DNA of 27,478 nucleotides, from the IMG/VR virus record IMGVR_UViG_3300029914_000111, positions 1 through 27,478 of that record. The stretch is one strand, 5' to 3'. Made by a program: the position numbers and the translations under genes. Of this stretch, positions 16,235-24,329 are shown piece by piece. Origin of the DNA: a virus. Each line of letters starts with the position of its first letter. Positions within the stretch are counted from its first letter, which is position 1. The notes under the pieces were generated by a model. The model did not search any database and was not told where the DNA came from. It saw nothing but the letters and a program-made list of their open reading frames with translations.

Positions 16235-16247
16235 AGACTTGATAAAG

Positions 16248-16273
16248 CCGCGACGTGATGTCGCTGCCAATCC
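16248..16273 (+). promoter_or_regulatory. Leader hairpin, copy 1 (before the cement gene)
   Basis: GCGAC (16250-16254), loop GTGAT (16255-16259), GTCGC (16260-16264), then TGCCAATCC. The 26 bases 16248-16273 are identical to 17262-17287 before the capsid gene. There are 27 bases between the stem and the ATG at 16292. It probably acts in the mRNA, by setting RNA stability or ribosome loading. Confidence 0.6.
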
Positions 16274-16291
16274 TTATAAATGGAGATACAA

Positions 16292-17251
16292 ATGGGTTTT
16301 CAGCAAACCGTTAATATCGAAAATGCCTTTGGCATTCAGGGCGCATTGTACGACAATGGCCCGGTTCGTTCCCTCCCCTATGAATTGGTTTCCGCATCTG
16401 CCGCTTACAACGTGATCGGCGCAACCGCCTTCACGGTCACAAGCGCGGATACCGGCAATAGTTCGGCTTCGGGCGTTGCAGCTGCGGGCGGAACCGGCGT
16501 GTTTGCTGGCATCCTTGGCAATTCCAAACTGTACTCAACGGCTGGCACATCCAGCGGCGCGTTGAACCCCACGATGGCTTTGCTGAATTACACGCTCGGC
16601 GAACTGTTCGTTATGGCTGACCTGATCGTCGCCTTGCCGAATAGCTCCAACATCGGCGATCTGGTTTGCTATGACGCCATGACCGGCGCTCTGGCGACTT
16701 ATGCGCCTGTGACCAAGTTCACGGCGGCATTCTTGTCAACCGGCACTCTGTCGGTCACGGCGGTTTCTGTCGGCCAGCTTCAGGTTGGCATGGTGGTATC
16801 TGGCGCAGGCATTCCTCCCGGTGCATATATCACTGCATTGGGAACAGGCCTTGGCTACACGGGAACCTATACGCTTAGCTGCACGACTGCTGCAAGCATC
16901 GCCAGCGAAGCCATGACGGCCCCTAGCTTGCCGCCTGTCGCCGCGTCGGTAACCGGCTTGTTCTACACCCCCGGCATGTTGAGCGTTACGGCAGTTGGCT
17001 CTGGCGAACTGGCAATCGGCCAAGTTCTCTACGGCACCGGCGTTCCTGCTCAGACTGTCATCACGGGCTTCGGCACGGGCGTCGGCGGAACCGGAACTTA
17101 TTCGGTCAATACCGTCAGCACCTTCACGCTTGGCTCGATCACGATTACCTCTGATTTGCAGATCGCAGTTCCCAATGCAACCGTCTATCGCTTCCCCTCG
17201 GCGGGTGCTTCGGGCGGACAGAATGTCGGCGTTATCAAGTTGACTAACTAA
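16292..17251 (+). CDS. Capsid cement/decoration protein with two inserted beta domains, 319 aa
   Basis: ATG 16292 has GGAG seven bases upstream; an earlier ATG at 16280 overlaps that site. The first ~140 residues ([32 protein letters not shown], then [28 protein letters not shown]) follow the pattern of gp24-type cement proteins. The final [20 protein letters not shown] belongs to the same fold. Between them are two copies of a Gly/Thr/Val-rich beta repeat (~143-210 and ~219-288) that is also found in the neck and sheath proteins. Such proteins bind the outside of the capsid shell and strengthen it. The inserts presumably stick out from the surface. Flanked by matching leader hairpins. Confidence 0.7.
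16718..16922 (+). repeat. Inserted beta-repeat domain, copy A (cement protein)
   Basis: Encodes about 68 residues with the pattern [49 protein letters not shown]. This pattern is shared with copies B, C and D. It is the most divergent at its 3' end. Confidence 0.7.
16947..17154 (+). repeat. Inserted beta-repeat domain, copy B (cement protein)
   Basis: Same pattern as copy [47 protein letters not shown]. Bases 17105-17130 are identical to 22890-22915 in copy D of the sheath gene, so these two copies have a recent common source. Confidence 0.78.
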
Positions 17252-17261
17252 GATTAAGTGA

Positions 17262-17287
17262 CCGCGACGTGATGTCGCTGCCAATCC
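17262..17287 (+). promoter_or_regulatory. Leader hairpin, copy 2 (before the capsid gene)
   Basis: GCGAC (17264-17268), loop GTGAT, GTCGC (17274-17278), followed by TGCCAATCC. The spacing from stem to ATG 17306 is 27 bases, the same as for copy 1. After it comes ATGGAG, which supplies the ribosome site in both leaders. Confidence 0.6.
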
Positions 17288-17305
17288 CTTTTGATGGAGT
17301 TAAAA

Positions 17306-18433
17306 ATGGCATTACAGGCTTCTCAGGAACACTTTCATATCCCAGCGCGTAAGGTTCGTCAGTTTTCCAAAGCGGAGATCTCGAACGACATCAAAGGCGC
17401 AATGGACATGGGGTTTGGTTTCGCAAACCAATCTGTCATGCGCGACATGGCGGTTTCCTACGCCGCCGATGCTGTGCAAGCCCCATTGACCACACCGACG
17501 ATCCCCGGTTTGGTTCAGTTCTTGCAAAACTGGCTCCCCGGCCAAGTCCACGTCATGACCGCCGCCCGCAAGATTGACGACCTGATCGGCATCTCGACAA
17601 TCGGAAATTGGGATGACGAGCAGATCGTTCAGGAAGAACTGGAAAATGTCGGTTATGCCCAGCCATATCAAGATAACACGAATGTCGTTCTGGCTGACTG
17701 GTCGCTGAACTTCGTCGCCCGCACCGTCATCCGCTTTGAACTTGGTATGATGGTCGGCATGTTGGAAGAAGCCCGCGCTGCCCGCGTCCGCGTGAATAGC
17801 TCGGAAGCCAAGCGTCAATCCGCTGGCCTCAATCTTGAAATCACCCGCAATCTGGTTGGCTTCAACGGTTACAATTCTGGCAACGGAAATACCTACGGTT
17901 TCTTGAATGACCCGGGTCTGTTACCTTACACGACTGTTGCAGCAACCGGCACGTCCAGCTCAACCTACTGGTCACAAAAGACGTTCTTGGAAATCCAGTC
18001 CGATCTGTTGATTGCCATTAATGCGCTGGTTGTTCAGACCCAAGCGATTGTCGATCCCGAAATGGTTGACATGACCCTCGCAATGGCGACGAATGCTTAT
18101 GCGTACCTCAGCACGACTTCTGACTTTGGCATCTCGGTTCGCAAGTGGTTATCGGATGCTTATCCGAAAATCCGCGTTGTCCATGCTCCGCAGTTGAATG
18201 CTGCGAATGGCACGGCGGGCGCGGGCGGCGGTGGGTTCTACCTGTTTGCCGACAAGCTGAATGATCTTTCGACCGATGATGGCCGCACGTTCATTCAGGT
18301 GGTTCCTGCTAAGTTTATGGTTACGGGAGTTGAGAAAAAAGCTAAGGGGTATTTGGAAAACTACGTTTCTTGCACAGCCGGAGTTATGGCGAAAAGGCCG
18401 TGGGCATGCGTAAGATATTCAGGAATATCATGA
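17306..18433 (+). CDS. Major capsid protein (DUF2184, HK97-type fold), 375 aa
   Basis: Begins MALQASQEHFHIPARKVRQF; GGAG lies seven bases before ATG 17306. The family features are visible in order: an N-arm, TTPTIPGLVQFLQNWLPGQV, the E-loop region (GNWDDEQIVQEELENVGYA), the spine helix region (EEARAARVRVNSSEAKRQS), and the C-terminal VQVVPAKFMVTGVEKKAKGY-type strand and end (AGVMAKRPWACVRYSGIS). It should form the icosahedral shell. The protein looks complete, so the HNH gene that follows has not split it. The leader carries hairpin copy 2, in keeping with very high late expression. Confidence 0.82.
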   Translation: MALQASQEHFHIPARKVRQFSKAEISNDIKGAMDMGFGFANQSVMRDMAVSYAADAVQAPLTTPTIPGLVQFLQNWLPGQVHVMTAARKIDDLIGISTIGNWDDEQIVQEELENVGYAQPYQDNTNVVLADWSLNFVARTVIRFELGMMVGMLEEARAARVRVNSSEAKRQSAGLNLEITRNLVGFNGYNSGNGNTYGFLNDPGLLPYTTVAATGTSSSTYWSQKTFLEIQSDLLIAINALVVQTQAIVDPEMVDMTLAMATNAYAYLSTTSDFGISVRKWLSDAYPKIRVVHAPQLNAANGTAGAGGGGFYLFADKLNDLSTDDGRTFIQVVPAKFMVTGVEKKAKGYLENYVSCTAGVMAKRPWACVRYSGIS

Positions 18434-18470
18434 GGTTAGCTGATAATATAATCTTTTGATTTACTACTTG

Positions 18471-18505
18471 ATAACCCTTAGTCTATATGCTAGACTAAGG
18501 GTTAT
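18471..18505 (+). promoter_or_regulatory. 35-base perfect palindrome covering the HNH gene start
   Basis: ATAACCCTTAGTCTA (18471-18485), loop TATGC, then TAGACTAAGGGTTAT (18491-18505). The stem is 15 base pairs with no mismatch. The second arm contains the ribosome site AAGGG and the first two bases of the ATG at 18504. In an RNA that includes both arms, translation would be blocked. A -10-like TATAAT is at 18447-18452, so a local promoter could also make this leader. No T run follows, so it is not a standard terminator, though it may still shield the capsid mRNA end. Confidence 0.75.
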
Positions 18506-19265
18506 GAATTACAGCACTACATACGAAAAACTAATCGCCAGCGCAAAAGCAAATCCTCCCGTGGGATATTGCGAGGTGCATCATATTGTTCCGCGCTGCA
18601 TTGGCGGCGGGAATGAGCAAGATAATCTTGTATCACTATCAGCTAGGCAGCATTTTGTAGCACACCAGATTTTAGCAAAAATACATGGTGGAAAATTAAT
18701 AGCACCAGCATATATGATGTCCAAAAACGGAAAACACTCTAGTCACGATTACGAATGGCTAAGAATCAGACACTGCAAAAATCTAGAGGGAAATAAATAT
18801 GGCGAGGCTTTAAGGGGATACAAGCATTCTGCGCAAACAAAAGCCAATATGTCCAGAGCGCAAAAGGGACTTCCATCACAAATCAAGGGGCGCACATTCG
18901 GCCCGCGCAAGAAACGGAAATCACAAGAATGCCGAGACTTAAAGTCCGCATCTATGAAGGCTTTATGGGTCAAGCGCCACGCTGAAGGCTTTAAGCAGGC
19001 CAAGCCACGTCCGCGCAGCGCAGAGGCAAACGCCAAAATCTCCGCCAAGAAAATGGGGCATGAGGTATCGCCAGAAACCCGCGAAAAGATTAGACTCACG
19101 GTATTGGCGAACATCGAGAAACGCCGCGCTGAAGGCTACAAATACCCGAAGAACAGAAAGACCATCTCCGCCGAAGCTCGAGCTAAGATAGCTCAATCCG
19201 TAAGAGATGCTGCCATTCGTCGCCGCGCAAACGCTGCTCTTGAAAATCAAGACACTTTAACGTAA
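18504..19265 (+). CDS. Free-standing HNH homing endonuclease with NUMOD3 repeats, 253 aa
   Basis: The N-terminal HNH site is YCEVHHIVPRCIGGGNEQDN, followed by LVSLSARQHFVAHQIL (~22-57). From ~105 to the end are repeated NUMOD3-type DNA-binding motifs (HSAQTKANMSRAQKG, RSAEANAKISAKKMG, SAEARAKIAQSV) joined by very basic linkers. Such enzymes cut a specific site in genomes lacking the gene and spread by repair; they often sit beside a highly conserved gene such as the capsid. The start at 18504 is chosen for MNYSTTYEK and for the AAGGG in the palindrome. The earlier frame start (18456) would run through the stem. It breaks the normal capsid-to-neck gene order. Confidence 0.85.
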   Translation: MNYSTTYEKLIASAKANPPVGYCEVHHIVPRCIGGGNEQDNLVSLSARQHFVAHQILAKIHGGKLIAPAYMMSKNGKHSSHDYEWLRIRHCKNLEGNKYGEALRGYKHSAQTKANMSRAQKGLPSQIKGRTFGPRKKRKSQECRDLKSASMKALWVKRHAEGFKQAKPRPRSAEANAKISAKKMGHEVSPETREKIRLTVLANIEKRRAEGYKYPKNRKTISAEARAKIAQSVRDAAIRRRANAALENQDTLT

Positions 19266-19285
19266 GATATGCCTTTATCTTTTAT

Positions 19286-19319
19286 GGTCTGTCCTGATGC
19301 TCATCCATTGGGACAGACC
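19286..19319 (+). promoter_or_regulatory. Inverted repeat in the leader of the 130-aa gene
   Basis: GGTCTGTCC (19286-19294) pairs with GGACAGACC (19311-19319) across a 16-base loop. It starts 20 bases after the HNH stop and ends 27 bases before ATG 19347, the same spacing as the GTGAT hairpins. It could be the end of the HNH message or a leader structure. No T run follows. Confidence 0.45.
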
Positions 19320-19346
19320 GCCAACAACCTGATGAGAGGAAAACAA

Positions 19347-19739
19347 ATGGCTAAACACTTCTATATTTTTTCGACCCTCAGCAATGATAATCGCTACGGA
19401 CGCTATTCGCCCGCGCCTAATGGCGGACATCCAGAGTTAACCGAAAGCGTCACTATCGCAGGCGGCGCGAACGTCATCGGTAAACACTTTATAACCCCGC
19501 ATGGCGTCATGACGGAAGTCACCGAAGCGCAAATGGATATTCTGAACAGCAACTTTCTGTTCAAGCAACACGTCAAGTCTGGCCACATCGTCGTGCGCGA
19601 TACCAAGTCAGACCCCGAAAAGGTCGTGGCTAAAGAGATGGAAAAGATTGACGGCTCCGCGCCTGTAACGCCGGAATCACTGAAAGCCCTCGGAATTGCT
19701 GCGAAGCCCGAAGGTAAATCCGGTCGCATGGTGTCGTAA
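19347..19739 (+). CDS. Hypothetical head/neck-region protein, 130 aa
   Basis: AGAGGA lies before ATG 19347, so the longer frame from 19269 is rejected. Sequence MAKHFYIFSTLSNDNRYGRY, then a beta-type segment SVTIAGGANVIGKHFITPHG and a helix-rich C-terminus (SDPEKVVAKEMEKIDG). In related phages a small protein often lies between capsid and neck genes. It could be a head-completion or capsid-surface protein, but I cannot name a family. Its stop overlaps the next start by one base (TAATG). Confidence 0.6.
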   Translation: MAKHFYIFSTLSNDNRYGRYSPAPNGGHPELTESVTIAGGANVIGKHFITPHGVMTEVTEAQMDILNSNFLFKQHVKSGHIVVRDTKSDPEKVVAKEMEKIDGSAPVTPESLKALGIAAKPEGKSGRMVS

Positions 19740-20185
19740 TGTCATGTCCCCCAGCCTTTCAATATAACGACGCCCAGTTCAGGGCGCAGTTCCCTGCGTT
19801 TTCTGACGCCACAGCCTACCCACAGGCCACGCTGTCGCAGTATTTCACGACGGGAGGCATGTACGTGGCTAACTCGAATTACGGCTATCTGGCGCAGGCT
19901 GGGGCGACACTGACGTGCCTTTACCTATTGACGGCGCATCTCGCGCAGTTGGCGACACAGATAGCGGACGGACAGACGCCGGTTATCGTGTCGGCATCCA
20001 GCATCGACAAGATCAGCGTAACGCTTGAACCGCCGCCCGCGACATCGGCTTGGGAGTATTGGTTTCAGACGACGGCATATGGATCTCAGCTTTTGGCGAT
20101 GCTGGAAGGTCTGTCGGTCGGAGGATTCCATGTTGCTGGAAGCATAGGCAGGCAGGGGTTTGGCTTCAATGGCGGTCGTTACTAG
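19739..20185 (+). CDS. Head-tail connector / neck protein (DUF4054), 148 aa
   Basis: The opening FQYNDAQFRAQFPAFSDATA, followed by YPQATLSQYFTTGGMYV, matches the DUF4054 pattern (F...FP.F.....y....l...f...) found in phage connector proteins. A hydrophobic helix follows (TLTCLYLLTAHLAQLA), and a Gly-rich C-terminus (GSIGRQGFGFNGGRY) resembles the flexible ends of these proteins. It should bind the portal from below and seal the head after packaging. Start overlaps the upstream stop as TAATG. Confidence 0.72.
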   Translation: MSCPPAFQYNDAQFRAQFPAFSDATAYPQATLSQYFTTGGMYVANSNYGYLAQAGATLTCLYLLTAHLAQLATQIADGQTPVIVSASSIDKISVTLEPPPATSAWEYWFQTTAYGSQLLAMLEGLSVGGFHVAGSIGRQGFGFNGGRY

Positions 20186-20729
20186 TCAAAACAAGGGAAA
20201 AATCTTCGAGGCAATCAACGCCCGCATCAAAGAACTTGACGGCGTGACGACGCAGGCGGGCTTTCTCGGTGGTACATACCCAAACGGCCAATCCATCGCG
20301 CAAGTCGCTGTCTGGCAGGAGTTCGGCGTTCCATCGCGTAAGATACCGCCCCGACCATTCATGCGCCCAGCCGTTACCGAGAATAAGCAGAAATGGTCAA
20401 ACCTCATGGCATCCGGCGCACGCGCTGTTTTAAAGGGCAATGAAACCCCATTCAGCGTCATGGATAAGGTTGGCGCGGTTGCGGCATCGGATATAGCCCA
20501 AGCGATAATAAACGTCACAGCGCCGCCCCTCAGCCCGATCACGATAGAATTGCGCGATATGAAGCGGCGTGGTATAAATGTAACGGGCGCAACGGTCGGA
20601 GAGGCTGCAAGGAAAGTGGCATCGCCCGATTACGTTACGCCGAGCATTTCCGACAAGCCCTTGATCGAGCCGGGGCAAGATGGCGGGATTATGCTGGCGG
20701 CTGTATCGCATGAAACGAAGAAGGAGTGA
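20169..20729 (+). CDS. Neck / virion-morphogenesis protein (HK97 gp10-like), 186 aa
   Basis: The pattern AGFLGGTYPNGQSIAQVAVW, then QEFGVPSRKIPPRPFMRPAV, is typical of gp10/Mu gpG-like neck or tail-completion proteins (Y.dG...a.vA..nEfG...ip.RPf.r.a). The rest is helical with a basic C-terminal stretch. It would link the neck and tail. ATG 20169 is chosen; a TTG at 20160 is also in frame. It overlaps the preceding gene by 17 bases. Confidence 0.68.
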   Translation: MAVVTSQNKGKIFEAINARIKELDGVTTQAGFLGGTYPNGQSIAQVAVWQEFGVPSRKIPPRPFMRPAVTENKQKWSNLMASGARAVLKGNETPFSVMDKVGAVAASDIAQAIINVTAPPLSPITIELRDMKRRGINVTGATVGEAARKVASPDYVTPSISDKPLIEPGQDGGIMLAAVSHETKKE

Positions 20730-20731
20730 TT

Positions 20732-21103
20732 ATGGCAACGCCGGGCAGCAACATCCTGAAAACCGCACTTCGCGTAATCGCATCGCAGCAAATCCAGTAT
20801 CTTGCGTTCGTCTCGCGCACCAATCAGGCTAACGGTATTCTGTTGCCGGTCTATGCGCCAGCCATAACATTACGTGGAAGCATTCAGCCTGTTCCGCGCT
20901 CAATCATGGAACGGCTCGGGCTTGATTTTCAAAAACATTATCAGAATATCTTTGTGCCAAATAATATCGTTGACGTGCGCCGCGACGTGACATCCGATCA
21001 ATTCAAATTTCAGGGGATGACATTTCAGGCATTATCTTTAACCAGGTGGATTGGCGTTGACGGATGGAATGAGTGCCTCGTCGTGGAGGTGCCAAATTCT
21101 TGA
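20732..21103 (+). CDS. Probable neck protein, 123 aa
   Basis: AAGGAG lies six bases before ATG 20732; a GTG at 20726 is less likely. The protein is mostly beta (QYLAFVSRTNQANGILLPVY, then ITLRGSIQPVPRSIMERLGL) and ends RWIGVDGWNECLVVEVPNS, as in phage stopper or head-tail joining proteins. The position between gp10-like and tail-terminator-like genes suggests the same. I do not assign a named family with certainty. Confidence 0.55.
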   Translation: MATPGSNILKTALRVIASQQIQYLAFVSRTNQANGILLPVYAPAITLRGSIQPVPRSIMERLGLDFQKHYQNIFVPNNIVDVRRDVTSDQFKFQGMTFQALSLTRWIGVDGWNECLVVEVPNS

Positions 21104-21830
21104 CAACGCACTAATCGCGCTGATTATCAGCCAACTCAATACCGGTCTTGCGTCAATAGGCCAAGGGTCAATTGTGGTTCTGCAAGACTACCAGCCAGTC
21201 ACCGAAGGCGTCGATACGGCTGCCAGCATTTACCTTCACAAAGTCGGCGACGAACTCATGGGCGCGTCCTATCGTAACAACCTGTGGAACCCGACGCAGA
21301 TTGCAGCTTTCACCGGCAGCGTCGCCGGCACGACATTAACAGTTTCCGCCATATCAAGCGGCTCGATTACATCCGGCCAAGTCCTGCAAGGAACCGGCAT
21401 TCCCGATAATATCCAGATCGTCGGCGTTGGCGCGAACAACACATTCACGCTCACGCAGGGATTTACCGTCGGCTCAATATCCATGACGACAATCGCTGGC
21501 ATGGGCTACACCGAATCGCAGCAATACTTGACGACGTTCCAGTTTTCCGCGCTTGCCACGCAAGACCCGTCGAACGTGAACAGCCTGACCGCATCGGACA
21601 TTTTGAACTACGCCCGCGCTGTCATGCAGAGCTTGGCGTTTGTCACGGCGATTGAGGCGCAGGGGGTTGGGGTATTGCGGATTGGCGCGGTTAGGAATCC
21701 GGCGTTTACGGATGACCGCGATCGGTTTGAATATGAGCCGAGCCTTGATGTGGTCTTTTCGCACAAACAACTAATCAGTTCCGTCCAGCCAATCGTCACC
21801 GAGGAGGTTGTGCAAATCCTCTCAGTGTGA
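21069..21830 (+). CDS. Tail/neck terminator-like protein with an inserted beta repeat, ~253 aa
   Basis: The first ~75 residues (LIALIISQLNTGLASIGQGS and onward) and the last ~110 (GYTESQQYLTTFQFSALATQ, LNYARAVMQSLAF, then DDRDRFEYEPSLDVVFSHKQ) fit a phage neck/tail terminator. The fold is cut by about 62 residues of the shared beta-repeat domain (~78-141). The start is uncertain: ATG 21069 overlaps the previous gene by 35 bases. An ATT at 21096, six bases after a good GGAGG (21085-21089), is in frame and might be the real start. It is the last neck gene before the sheath. Confidence 0.6.
   Translation: MSASSWRCQILDNALIALIISQLNTGLASIGQGSIVVLQDYQPVTEGVDTAASIYLHKVGDELMGASYRNNLWNPTQIAAFTGSVAGTTLTVSAISSGSITSGQVLQGTGIPDNIQIVGVGANNTFTLTQGFTVGSISMTTIAGMGYTESQQYLTTFQFSALATQDPSNVNSLTASDILNYARAVMQSLAFVTAIEAQGVGVLRIGAVRNPAFTDDRDRFEYEPSLDVVFSHKQLISSVQPIVTEEVVQILSV
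21302..21490 (+). repeat. Inserted beta-repeat domain, copy C (tail terminator)
   Basis: Encodes FTGSVAGTTLTVSAISSGS, then GQVLQGTGIP and NTFTLTQGFTVGSISMTT. It has the same order of motifs as the other copies but is shorter in the middle (no doubled GTG segment). It divides the host protein cleanly. Confidence 0.72.
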
Positions 21831-21998
21831 TAAGCAGGTATGCTTGCATTTGGCGAGTGCGGGTGTAGCGTCGTGATGATGGGACGGAGTGCCAATTCTC
21901 AATAAAACAATCGCCTTGTTTTGTTTAGCGGTTGTGGTAAAGTGATAGCCGATATATCCGCGCTGTGATAGCGCAGAATCCCATAGATGGAGGCTTCA
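21831..21998 (+). promoter_or_regulatory. Sheath leader with hairpin copy 3
   Basis: This 168-base gap holds GCGCT (21960-21964), loop GTGAT, AGCGC (21970-21974), 24 bases before the TTG start at 21999. Compared with copies 1 and 2 the loop is the same, while the stem differs at two positions on both sides, so pairing is kept. Further up, 21868-21898 has GCGTCGTGAT and TGCCAATTC, perhaps a decayed copy. A weak AAAACAA/TTGTTTT stem is at 21904-21922. No clear promoter seen. Confidence 0.55.
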
Positions 21999-23741
21999 TT
22001 GCCAATTCCAATTTCCCAATATGTGCTTATCACATCAGCAGTTGGCGGCGGAGCGAATGTCTCCACCCGCAATTTAGGCGGCTTAGTCGTCACCGGAAAC
22101 CCCCTCTGCCCATCAGGAACAATCGTCAACTTTGCCTCGGCTTTGGCGGTTGGCAATTTCTTCGGTACGGCTTCGGAAGAATACGCCCGCGCTGAGTTTT
22201 ATTTCAGCTATATCAGCAAAAACGGCACTCAGGCGAATCAGATCAGCTTCTGGTATTGGAACGGCGATCAGAACACCGGCAGCTTGATTTATGGCCTGCC
22301 AGCCAGCTATGCAGTTTCGCAGTTTACCGGCATCACGACCGGCGACTTCACGCTGACATTGGGCGGATATACCGATCACGTCACCAGCATCAATCTCAGC
22401 GCCGCAGGAAGCCTAGCAACGGTTGCATCTGACATGCAGACGGCTATCCGGGCGATCACGGGTGGTGGCACGGCATGGACGGGTGCAACAGTCACCTACA
22501 ATGCCCTCACAAGCCAATTTTACCTAGTCTCCGGCGCGATTGGCACGGATGTCATTACGGTGGCGGCTGGAACGAATGAGGATGTTGCCGGGCCATTGGG
22601 CTGGCTCACGGGGGCTATTCTCTCGAACGGTACGAATGCTCAGGCAGTATCGGACAATCTCAACAGCCTCATTCAGATCAGCAATAACTTCGGTTCTCTG
22701 TGCTATGAATCTGGCAACATTCCTCGCGCTGTAGTTACGGCTGCTTTCTACACGCCGAGCATGATGTCTGTTTCTGCGGTCACTTCGGGCCAGTTAGCCA
22801 TTGGCGATGTTCTAGTCGGAACTGGAGTTCCTAGTGGTACAAAGATCGTCGGCCTAGGAACTGGAACGACTGGCGTGGGGACTTTCTCAGTCAATACCGT
22901 CAGCACCTTCACGCTGGGCGCGATTTCGATTGCAGCTTCGTTGCCGATCCAACTTTCGGAAATTGAGTCGGCTGCTACTTGGAATAATAGCCTGTCTCCC
23001 AATAACCAGTTCTTGTTCTCAGTTGCGGTATCGACTGCTAATGCTTCGGCTTGGGCTGCGGCTCTTGCAACCACGGGCGGCGTCTGTGCGACGCTTCCCT
23101 CCCCGCAAGTTGGCGCATATCCTGAAATGGAGCCGATGGCGATTGAAGCGGCGACTGATTACACGGCGCGGAATGCCGTTCAAAACTACATGTTCCAGCA
23201 GTTCAATGACACGGCCTCGGTTACGACTTCGGCGGCTTCTAACATTTATGATGCGCTCTTGGTCAACTATTACGGCGTGACTGAAACGGCGGGACAAAAC
23301 CTGTCATTCTACCAGCGCGGTGTTATGTTCGGTTTGGCGACTCAGCCTTCGGACATCGGCGTGTACGTCAATGAACTCTGGTTGAAGGACGCCATTCAAG
23401 CGTCGATCATGACGTTGTTGTTGTCGGTTGCTCAGGTTCCCGCGAACAGCACTGGTCAAGCGATGTTGACTGCTCAGATTTTGAGCATCGTGCAACAGGC
23501 TTTGTTCAACGGCACAATCTCGGTTGGCAAGACGCTCACGAGCGCACAGAAGCTTTACATCACACAAGCAACTGGAAGCCCTACGGCTTGGCAGCAAGTT
23601 CAAACGTCCGGCTATTGGCTGAATGTCGTCATTCTGCCTTATGTGACCGATGGGATTACGGAATACAAGGCGGTTTATACTTTGATTTACTCGAAGGCAG
23701 ACTCGATTAGGTTGGTCATCGGCTCAGATATTATGATATAA
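21999..23741 (+). CDS. Tail sheath protein (DUF3383 family), 580 aa
   Basis: I chose TTG 21999 as start: GGAGG is five bases upstream and the product then begins (M)PIPISQYVLITSAVGGG, the usual DUF3383 opening. The in-frame ATG at 21987 is part of the ATGGAG ribosome site. The family segments follow: FFGTASEEYARAEFYFSYIS, NQISFWYWNGD, later FSVAVSTANASAWAAALATT, and the C-terminal YWLNVVILPYVTDGITEYKA with a final strand LVIGSDIMI. Residues ~245-314 are the inserted beta repeat. The protein should form the contractile outer tube of the tail. The leader carries hairpin copy 3. Confidence 0.8.
   Translation: MPIPISQYVLITSAVGGGANVSTRNLGGLVVTGNPLCPSGTIVNFASALAVGNFFGTASEEYARAEFYFSYISKNGTQANQISFWYWNGDQNTGSLIYGLPASYAVSQFTGITTGDFTLTLGGYTDHVTSINLSAAGSLATVASDMQTAIRAITGGGTAWTGATVTYNALTSQFYLVSGAIGTDVITVAAGTNEDVAGPLGWLTGAILSNGTNAQAVSDNLNSLIQISNNFGSLCYESGNIPRAVVTAAFYTPSMMSVSAVTSGQLAIGDVLVGTGVPSGTKIVGLGTGTTGVGTFSVNTVSTFTLGAISIAASLPIQLSEIESAATWNNSLSPNNQFLFSVAVSTANASAWAAALATTGGVCATLPSPQVGAYPEMEPMAIEAATDYTARNAVQNYMFQQFNDTASVTTSAASNIYDALLVNYYGVTETAGQNLSFYQRGVMFGLATQPSDIGVYVNELWLKDAIQASIMTLLLSVAQVPANSTGQAMLTAQILSIVQQALFNGTISVGKTLTSAQKLYITQATGSPTAWQQVQTSGYWLNVVILPYVTDGITEYKAVYTLIYSKADSIRLVIGSDIMI
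22731..22939 (+). repeat. Inserted beta-repeat domain, copy D (sheath)
   Basis: Encodes AAFYTPSMMSVSAVTSGQ, IGDVLVGTGVPSG, and [19 protein letters not shown]. Bases 22890-22915 match 17105-17130 of copy B exactly (26 bases). Confidence 0.78.
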
Positions 23742-23747
23742 AAAACC

Positions 23748-24329
23748 ATGAAATCTTACCACATAGATGATGTTCGAGAAGAAAATCAAATTTCCCTAGA
23801 GGAAATTCTTGAACTATTTTCCTATGACGAAACTGGATATTTGATTTGGAACTCACGTCCATTAGGATTTTACGAAAATCCAATCCATCACAAAAGATGG
23901 AATGATTTTCATGCGGGACAACGCGCAGGAACAATCAATAGTTTCGGATATGTCAAAGTCAAGGTATTCGGGAAACAACGCTCCGTTCATCGCATTATCT
24001 GGTTTATAAAAACTGGCGAATGGCCAAAGGGTCAAATAGATCATGAAAACGGCATAAGACATGATAACCGTTTTGAGAATTTCCGCGATGTTTCTGGTTT
24101 AGAAAATCAGCGTAACAGAAAATTTAATAAGGACAATAATTCAGGTTTTCGTGGCGTTTATTGGAATAAGAACGAGAAAAAATGGAGAGCCTTTATTGAT
24201 ACCGGCAAACATCTCGGATATTTCGATAAATTTGAGGATGCGGTCGAGGCTCGGTTGAACGCTGAAAAAGAAATCGGATACCATGAAAATCATGGGAAAG
24301 TCCTGAAACTGGTAGGAGAGTCCAAATGA
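23748..24329 (+). CDS. Free-standing HNH homing endonuclease with AP2 domain, 193 aa
   Basis: A short N-terminal region (SLEEILELFSYDETGYLIWN) is followed by the HNH core: VHRIIWFIKTGEWPKGQIDH, ENGIRHDNRFENFR (~82-115). Then comes an AP2 DNA-binding domain (SGFRGVYWNKNEKKWRAFID, GYFDKFEDAVEARL; ~132-175). This pairing is typical of phage homing endonucleases. It lies between sheath and tube, normally adjacent genes, and is richer in A/T than they are. Its 3' end supplies the GGAGAG ribosome site of the tube gene, and its stop overlaps that start (ATGA, 24326-24329), so the insertion has been fitted into the operon. Confidence 0.85.
   Translation: MKSYHIDDVREENQISLEEILELFSYDETGYLIWNSRPLGFYENPIHHKRWNDFHAGQRAGTINSFGYVKVKVFGKQRSVHRIIWFIKTGEWPKGQIDHENGIRHDNRFENFRDVSGLENQRNRKFNKDNNSGFRGVYWNKNEKKWRAFIDTGKHLGYFDKFEDAVEARLNAEKEIGYHENHGKVLKLVGESK

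Follow-up and report, generated by a model that had tools for sequence, protein, structure and literature searches.

A covarying GNGA-loop hairpin at the ribosome-binding sites of virion genes in unrelated phages

Why should three virion genes of one phage, those for a decoration protein, the major capsid protein and the tail sheath, each be preceded by the same small hairpin, and is that hairpin selected as RNA? The question is raised by the virus record IMGVR_UViG_3300029914_000111, a 27.5-kb IMG/VR fragment of a PB1/Pbunavirus-like phage that was analysed over its whole length (positions 1 to 27,478; hereafter the window) and whose coat protein is approximately 44–48% identical to those of PB1-like phages and Burkholderia Bm1, and less than 50% identical to those of cultured relatives. 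Comparison of many leaders identifies the hairpin as a real, apparently undescribed RNA element, which stands before virion genes in a wide range of unrelated phages, most of them uncultured; as judged from the sequences, it is under selection at the level of RNA.

The hairpins of the window

An earlier note on this DNA had described three hairpins with a 5-bp stem and a GTGAT loop, each followed by ATGGAG and located 27, 27 and 24 nt from the start codon. All of these features were found again, on the plus strand: the hairpins are GCGAC-GTGAT-GTCGC at 16250–16264 and 17264–17278 and GCGCT-GTGAT-AGCGC at 21960–21974, ATGGAG stands at 16280–16285, 17294–17299 and 21987–21992, and the start codons are ATG 16292, ATG 17306 and TTG 21999. 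The note's naming of the downstream genes as cement, capsid and sheath agrees with their PHROG assignments (virion/decoration, major head and tail sheath, respectively). For the sheath gene, the in-frame ATG at 21987 belongs to the Shine-Dalgarno sequence, and the start is the TTG. Below each stem lies a mismatch (C.U, C.U and C.A in copies 1, 2 and 3) followed by a lower stem of 2, 1 and 2 bp, whilst a UCC stands 7–8 nt upstream of the GGAG in all three copies. The features are as follows:

16247–16267, plus strand: hairpin before the decoration gene (copy 1); GC/GC lower and GCGAC/GTCGC upper stem, separated by a C.U mismatch, with a GUGAU loop; 44.3 bits with covariance model R1
16271–16285, plus strand: copy 1 UCC (16271–16273)-N8-GGAG (16282–16285), Shine-Dalgarno; from the sequence and from motif coupling in relatives
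16292–17251, plus strand: virion structural/decoration protein gene; phrog_3645, E=1.6e-29
17262–17280, plus strand: hairpin before the coat gene (copy 2); single C-G pair below and GCGAC/GTCGC above a C.U mismatch, with a GUGAU loop; R1, 41.4 bits
17285–17299, plus strand: copy 2 UCC-N8-GGAG; from the sequence
17306–18433, plus strand: major capsid protein gene, PB1/Pbunavirus-type; phrog_264, E=2.8e-67
21957–21977, plus strand: hairpin before the sheath gene (copy 3); UC/GA lower and GCGCU/AGCGC upper stem, separated by a C.A mismatch, with a GUGAU loop; R1, 50.6 bits
21979–21992, plus strand: copy 3 UCC-N7-GGAG; from the sequence
21999–23741, plus strand: tail sheath gene, start TTG 21999; phrog_205, E=3.2e-53

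The possibility that such hairpins are no more frequent than in random sequence, which the note had named as a counter-argument, does not hold: in 500 dinucleotide shuffles, GTGAT loops with at least 5 Watson-Crick pairs average 0.054 per window with a maximum of 2, and none of the 500 reaches the three observed. Copies 1 and 2 are identical over more than 20 bases and possibly derive from one duplication; because they are so nearly the same, the window on its own amounts to a single compensated event, at two of five pairs.

Covariation and spread across unrelated phages

The element was sought in IMG/VR with patterns, with covariance models and through homologues. When viral contigs were scanned for CCGCGNNGTGATNNCGC with ATGGAG behind it, the element turned up in unrelated contigs with stems GCGTC/GACGC, GCGTT/AACGC, GCGCC/GGCGC and GCGCT/AGCGC. 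A broader scan gave 84 matches, 63 of them with both free pairs complementary; in most of the 63, UCC(C) and GATGGAG come next and lead into the start codon of a structural gene, the rest being chance matches in coding sequence. Conservation of the UCC is independent of the search, whose pattern did not include it. The resulting consensus comprises a 2-bp lower stem, a 1x1 mismatch (A.C, C.C or C.U), an upper stem of 4–5 bp, a GNGA loop (GUGA, GCGA or GAGA, with an optional fifth base) and UCC-N7-GGAG-start, with UCC-N7/8-GGAG in most leaders and a gap of 12–16 nt between stem and ATGGAG. The loop is thus not strictly GUGAU, as GUGAC, GUGAG, GCGAU, GAGAU and the tetraloop GUGA also occur, and GNGA with an optional 3′ base would fit a GNRA-type loop with an extruded base.

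Beside the stem fixed by the pattern, covarying pairs extend to two more positions on each side (37 of 43 leaders each, vs 27 and 19 when shuffled), whilst the position between those pairs is unpaired in 43 of 43, constituting a conserved 1x1 mismatch with a lower stem. In alignment A2, composed of 44 motif-selected leaders, 96% of cells are paired and 38 cells carry double changes, vs 9.2 in shuffles; compensatory changes occur at 4 of 7 pairs in these leaders and at 9 of 11 pairs in 28 leaders with the two hairpins described below.

For a test independent of the motif, relatives of four coat families were gathered by protein similarity and only their leaders were examined, giving 177 non-redundant leaders; the queries were taken from carrier phages, and the cells counted are sequences, not events. 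A GNGA hairpin of at least 4 bp together with UCC/CCC-N6..8-GGA is present in 33 of the 177, compared with 0–1 for each of 11 control loop classes, and motif and hairpin co-occur (Fisher p=6e-6). Within the 33 leaders, the loop-adjacent pair is C-G, U-A or A-U, the next is U-A, C-G or G-C, and the outer pairs are G-C, C-G, A-U and U-A, in each case well above shuffles; the 4 bp needed for detection inflate the percentage paired, but affect neither the loop specificity nor the range of pair types. The selection on RNA pairing that the note had suspected is thus strongly supported by independent sequences, namely the 44 motif-selected, the 28 two-hairpin and the homology-chosen coat leaders. The disrupted stems that it had named as contrary evidence were largely not encountered, motif-bearing homologues mostly keeping the stem; the exception is one HK97 clade with an irregular 3-bp stem, GUC-GUGA(U)-GAC, an internal loop and CUG/CAG, in which UCC and GATGGAG are retained.

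The supposed link to abundant virion genes is likewise strongly supported by independent sequences. The 59 downstream proteins with a PHROG assignment include many unrelated major-head families as well as sheath, tube, major tail, portal and head-tail adaptor proteins; P22-, HK97- and Mu-type coats and scaffold are amongst the tagged genes, which are mainly those for major head, sheath, tube and major tail. The element is also repeated within genomes. In the genomes already identified, covariance model R1 recovers copies missed by the patterns: a phage contig of 22.8 kb has seven at E<1e-5, the window has its three, and other contigs have several. A Mu-like prophage in a proteobacterial metagenome-assembled genome has five, before a small virion-cluster gene, the coat, sheath and tube genes and a baseplate-like gene.

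A second hairpin lies upstream of about a third of the copies. CUU(G/A)GGCAA was found in 44 of 138 modules (all loci) within the 45-nt zone searched, always ending 9–14 nt before the GNGA stem, and forms the loop of a 3–6-bp hairpin whose three inner pairs covary (105, 105 and 103 of 127 paired); such loci include L067, L199, L225, L239, L243, L245, L424, L450, L505 and L602. Taking both helices together in the 28 leaders, 95.7% of cells are paired, with 69 double-change cells vs 20.6, and the covariation score is 0.638 vs 0.184 when shuffled and at most 0.111 when slid. CTTGGGCAAG occurs 131 times in the collected loci, vs approximately 10 expected, and the second hairpin has no match in Rfam. 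It also stands before coat genes without the GNGA hairpin (e.g. L427, L627 and L650). The window has no CUU(G/A)GGCAA loop, and a hairpin upstream of copy 3 may, tentatively, correspond:

21908–21934, plus strand: tentative counterpart of the second upstream hairpin; 7-bp stem CAAUCGC/GCGGUUG, loop CUUGUUUUGUUUA; from folding, with a match to model R2 at 21910–21992 (38.2 bits)

Several neighbouring features were also recorded. Behind the element at L052:8356–8396 (minus strand) stands a tiny reading frame (GTGAGGCGTGCCATTCCCGACTAA), with another possible start beyond it, perhaps indicating a leader peptide; L059:3599–3639 (minus strand) is similar, differing in details. L291 (G001) and L292 (G005) have other GNRA-loop hairpins of different sequence just 5′ of the ribosome-binding sites of further genes (ACTGTC-GTGA-GACAGT, TCGTC-GTGAT-GACGA and TGCCCTGA-GCAA-TCAGGGCA). 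In the window, a module of approximately 70 residues, phrog_21413, is common to the decoration protein (16292–17251, apparently twice), the protein encoded at 21111–21830 and the sheath (21999–23741). Free-standing homing/HNH endonuclease genes lie directly 3′ of the coat and sheath genes (18486–19265 and 23748–24329), and hence behind two of the three hairpin-tagged genes.

A possible role in translation initiation and its rivals

We propose that the element is a module acting in cis on the initiation of translation of high-copy virion proteins, with the ribosome or a host RNA-binding protein as its reader, a view which, resting on sequence comparison, we consider rather more probable than improbable. 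In this model the late-mRNA hairpin would form one unit with the ribosome-binding site, in the order lower stem, 1x1 mismatch, upper stem, GNGA loop, UCC, 7 nt, GGAG and start codon. The loop would be presented to the ribosome or to the host protein while GGAG engages 16S rRNA, and access could be tuned by transient pairing of the UCC with GGA. The hairpin would most likely set, and probably raise, translation initiation on coat, decoration, sheath and tube genes. Since hairpin, UCC, GGAG and start codon stand at nearly fixed distances from one another, the ribosome-binding site belongs to the element, which points to translation initiation; we infer this step, the reader and the sign of the effect, the last from the gene set, which encodes abundant proteins.

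Several findings weigh against this proposal. The predicted accessibility of GGAG is low (mean 0.27), which could mean repression, and two GGAU loop exceptions are at odds with a GNRA fold. Sixteen named or isolate phages with related coats are without the element (from Rhizobium, Acetobacter, Erythrobacter, Caulobacter, Citrobacter and others, several of them Alphaproteobacteria), so that high coat expression does not in general require it. Finally, the search for a common phage trans-factor, in which no gene family occurred in more than 6 of 14 carrier phages and which therefore favours the ribosome or a host protein as reader, covered partly incomplete genomes in which small or fast-evolving proteins could be missed.

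The same leaders could instead contain a switch, the GNGA loop being bound by an RNA-binding protein (one of the host, or an undetected one of the phage) that turns translation of the virion genes down or up as a regulon, in the manner of the MS2 coat at its operator and of Mu Com at mom. The constraint on loop and closing pair resembles that of protein recognition and the many copies per genome are regulon-like. A masked or tuned ribosome-binding site is possible, as the UCC is able to pair with GGA across a 7-nt loop, which could hide the Shine-Dalgarno sequence, and the coat leaders L340 and L401 have UCU with AGA at the same spacing; this helix, however, amounts to 3 bp and two possible compensations, no common phage gene was found and no host regulon was seen in two carrier host assemblies. 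We regard such a switch as unlikely, although worth keeping in view. The MS2/R17 coat operator itself, a short hairpin with a defined loop and an unpaired base beside a phage ribosome-binding site, differs in loop and mismatch type, and an MS2-type operator, at which the phage's own coat protein binds and represses replicase, was rejected as the element precedes several unrelated coat families together with sheath, tube and portal genes; with so many different virion genes carrying it, the coat protein cannot be the general reader. Comparably doubtful is an mRNA stability or processing element, whereby the late polycistronic mRNA would be cut upstream of each copy and the hairpin would protect the new 5′ end of coat, sheath and tube mRNAs. 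Several copies do lie within late gene clusters before high-copy genes, and a 5′ hairpin near a ribosome-binding site is a known mRNA stabiliser (the ompA leader), but a general stabiliser needs neither a fixed GNGA loop, nor a conserved mismatch, nor a UCC at a fixed distance from GGAG, and the sequence upstream contains no conserved cleavage site.

Three further readings have much less in their favour. The GUGAU loop could pair with the AUCAC beside the anti-Shine-Dalgarno of 16S rRNA (3′ tail GGAUCACCUCC) and so provide a ribosome standby site; the 5-nt complementarity is exact and the position 5′ of the ribosome-binding site is fixed, but with the loop variants GCGA, GAGA and GUGAC, or with the tetraloop GUGA, this pairing is lost or shortened whilst the hairpin persists, making this very improbable. 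A lambda-like antitermination site (of boxB/nut or HK022 PUT type) is, to a like degree, hard to credit. By shape, lambda boxB, of approximately 15 nt with a 5-bp stem and a GNRA-like loop with an extra base, is the closest known element, and HK022 PUT has a similar two-hairpin outline; the present element differs in its tetraloop forms, its conserved 1x1 mismatch with lower stem and its late-gene ribosome-binding sites. Membership of the boxB/nut class was rejected on the loops, which are GNGA(N) with many tetraloops and not a GNRNA pentaloop, and on placement, which is not in a leader before terminators but at a fixed distance from the GGAG and start codon of individual late genes. No gene family, and thus no N-like gene, was found to be common to the carriers, although tiny diverged N proteins could be missed. 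Upstream, where the class has a boxA sequence, the leaders show no conserved block, although no scan aimed at boxA was made. Least probable is a DNA inverted repeat forming part of an operator or promoter: any inverted repeat is expected to covary symmetrically, so the covariation of the 44 leaders alone cannot exclude it, but the arms vary around a conserved, asymmetric centre, and the element keeps one orientation and a set distance from the start codon. The leaders compared have no conserved sequence block upstream of the hairpin, for which reason a promoter or DNA operator was rejected. An intrinsic terminator was also rejected, as the hairpin is followed by UCC and a ribosome-binding site and by no U run.

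Known leaders, hosts and significance

The T7 gene 10 leader (g10 RBS or g10-L) contains an enhancer 5′ of the major capsid gene which gives strong expression in E. coli; this enhancer is a sequence element beside the Shine-Dalgarno and is dispensable in the alphaproteobacterium Agrobacterium (PMC8748333). It is the closest to our element by role, each adjoining the Shine-Dalgarno of a major capsid gene; unlike it, the element described here is a covarying hairpin, common to unrelated phages and to several genes per genome. The cis-regulatory leaders of Rfam 15 are alike in class only, and no Rfam 15 family was at or near its gathering threshold in the window and 24 other loci. No description of GUGAU or CUUGGGCAA hairpins was found in the literature searched, with subscription papers and preprints outside the search. 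In kind it is a structured phage leader at a ribosome-binding site, with a breadth across unrelated phages that is unusual.

With regard to hosts, prophages of a few Alphaproteobacteria genomes contain the element (R1 4/385 and R2 5/385, both including the chosen centre), and the covariance-model survey gave 0 of 369 for Gammaproteobacteria and 0 of 297 for genomes of an actinobacterial class, all of which is suggestive only. In a pattern scan of bacterial genomes (at least 119 stretches), among the matches listed only a phage contig of Sphingobium sp. YR768 and one genome with a Mu-like prophage carry the element, the rest being coding chance; the 42-kb contig that holds the only above-threshold copy in Sphingobium sp. 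YR768 is identical to a virus record. When the two carrier host assemblies were scanned over the whole genome, every match fell within the phage contig or prophage. An exact 17-mer scan of viral contigs (GCGACGTGATGTCGCTG) gave 44 stretches, nearly all coding chance together with the near-identical contig L003, which was the only find of a protein scan with the window coat; blastn of the consensus against cultured phages gave chance-level matches only, and a match in Stenotrophomonas DLP_6 was rejected as being without the ribosome-binding-site part. Presence of the element is thus not predictable from coat homology, but may be from host or lineage. In Mu-type coat relatives without it (L507, L516, L520, L524, L535, L547 and others), a terminator-like hairpin often lies at the same position just 5′ of the coat ribosome-binding site, with a stem such as CCCGC/GCGGG, a loop that is often UUCG and then a U run.

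A bolder form of the translation proposal, which we put forward tentatively and hold to be somewhat less likely than its opposite, is that the two-hairpin RNA is a portable ‘virion-gene translation tag’ that unrelated phage lineages sharing hosts have acquired, which would be read by a host factor or a host-specific ribosome feature and would mark genes needed in hundreds of copies. Coat, sheath and tube proteins are required in far larger amounts than their operon neighbours. If the proposal is correct, an RNA tag shared by exactly those genes in phages whose capsid folds are unrelated would explain quite generally how virion stoichiometry is set in uncultured phages, and would provide a handle for finding its reader, a marker of late genes in metagenomes and possibly a clue to host range.

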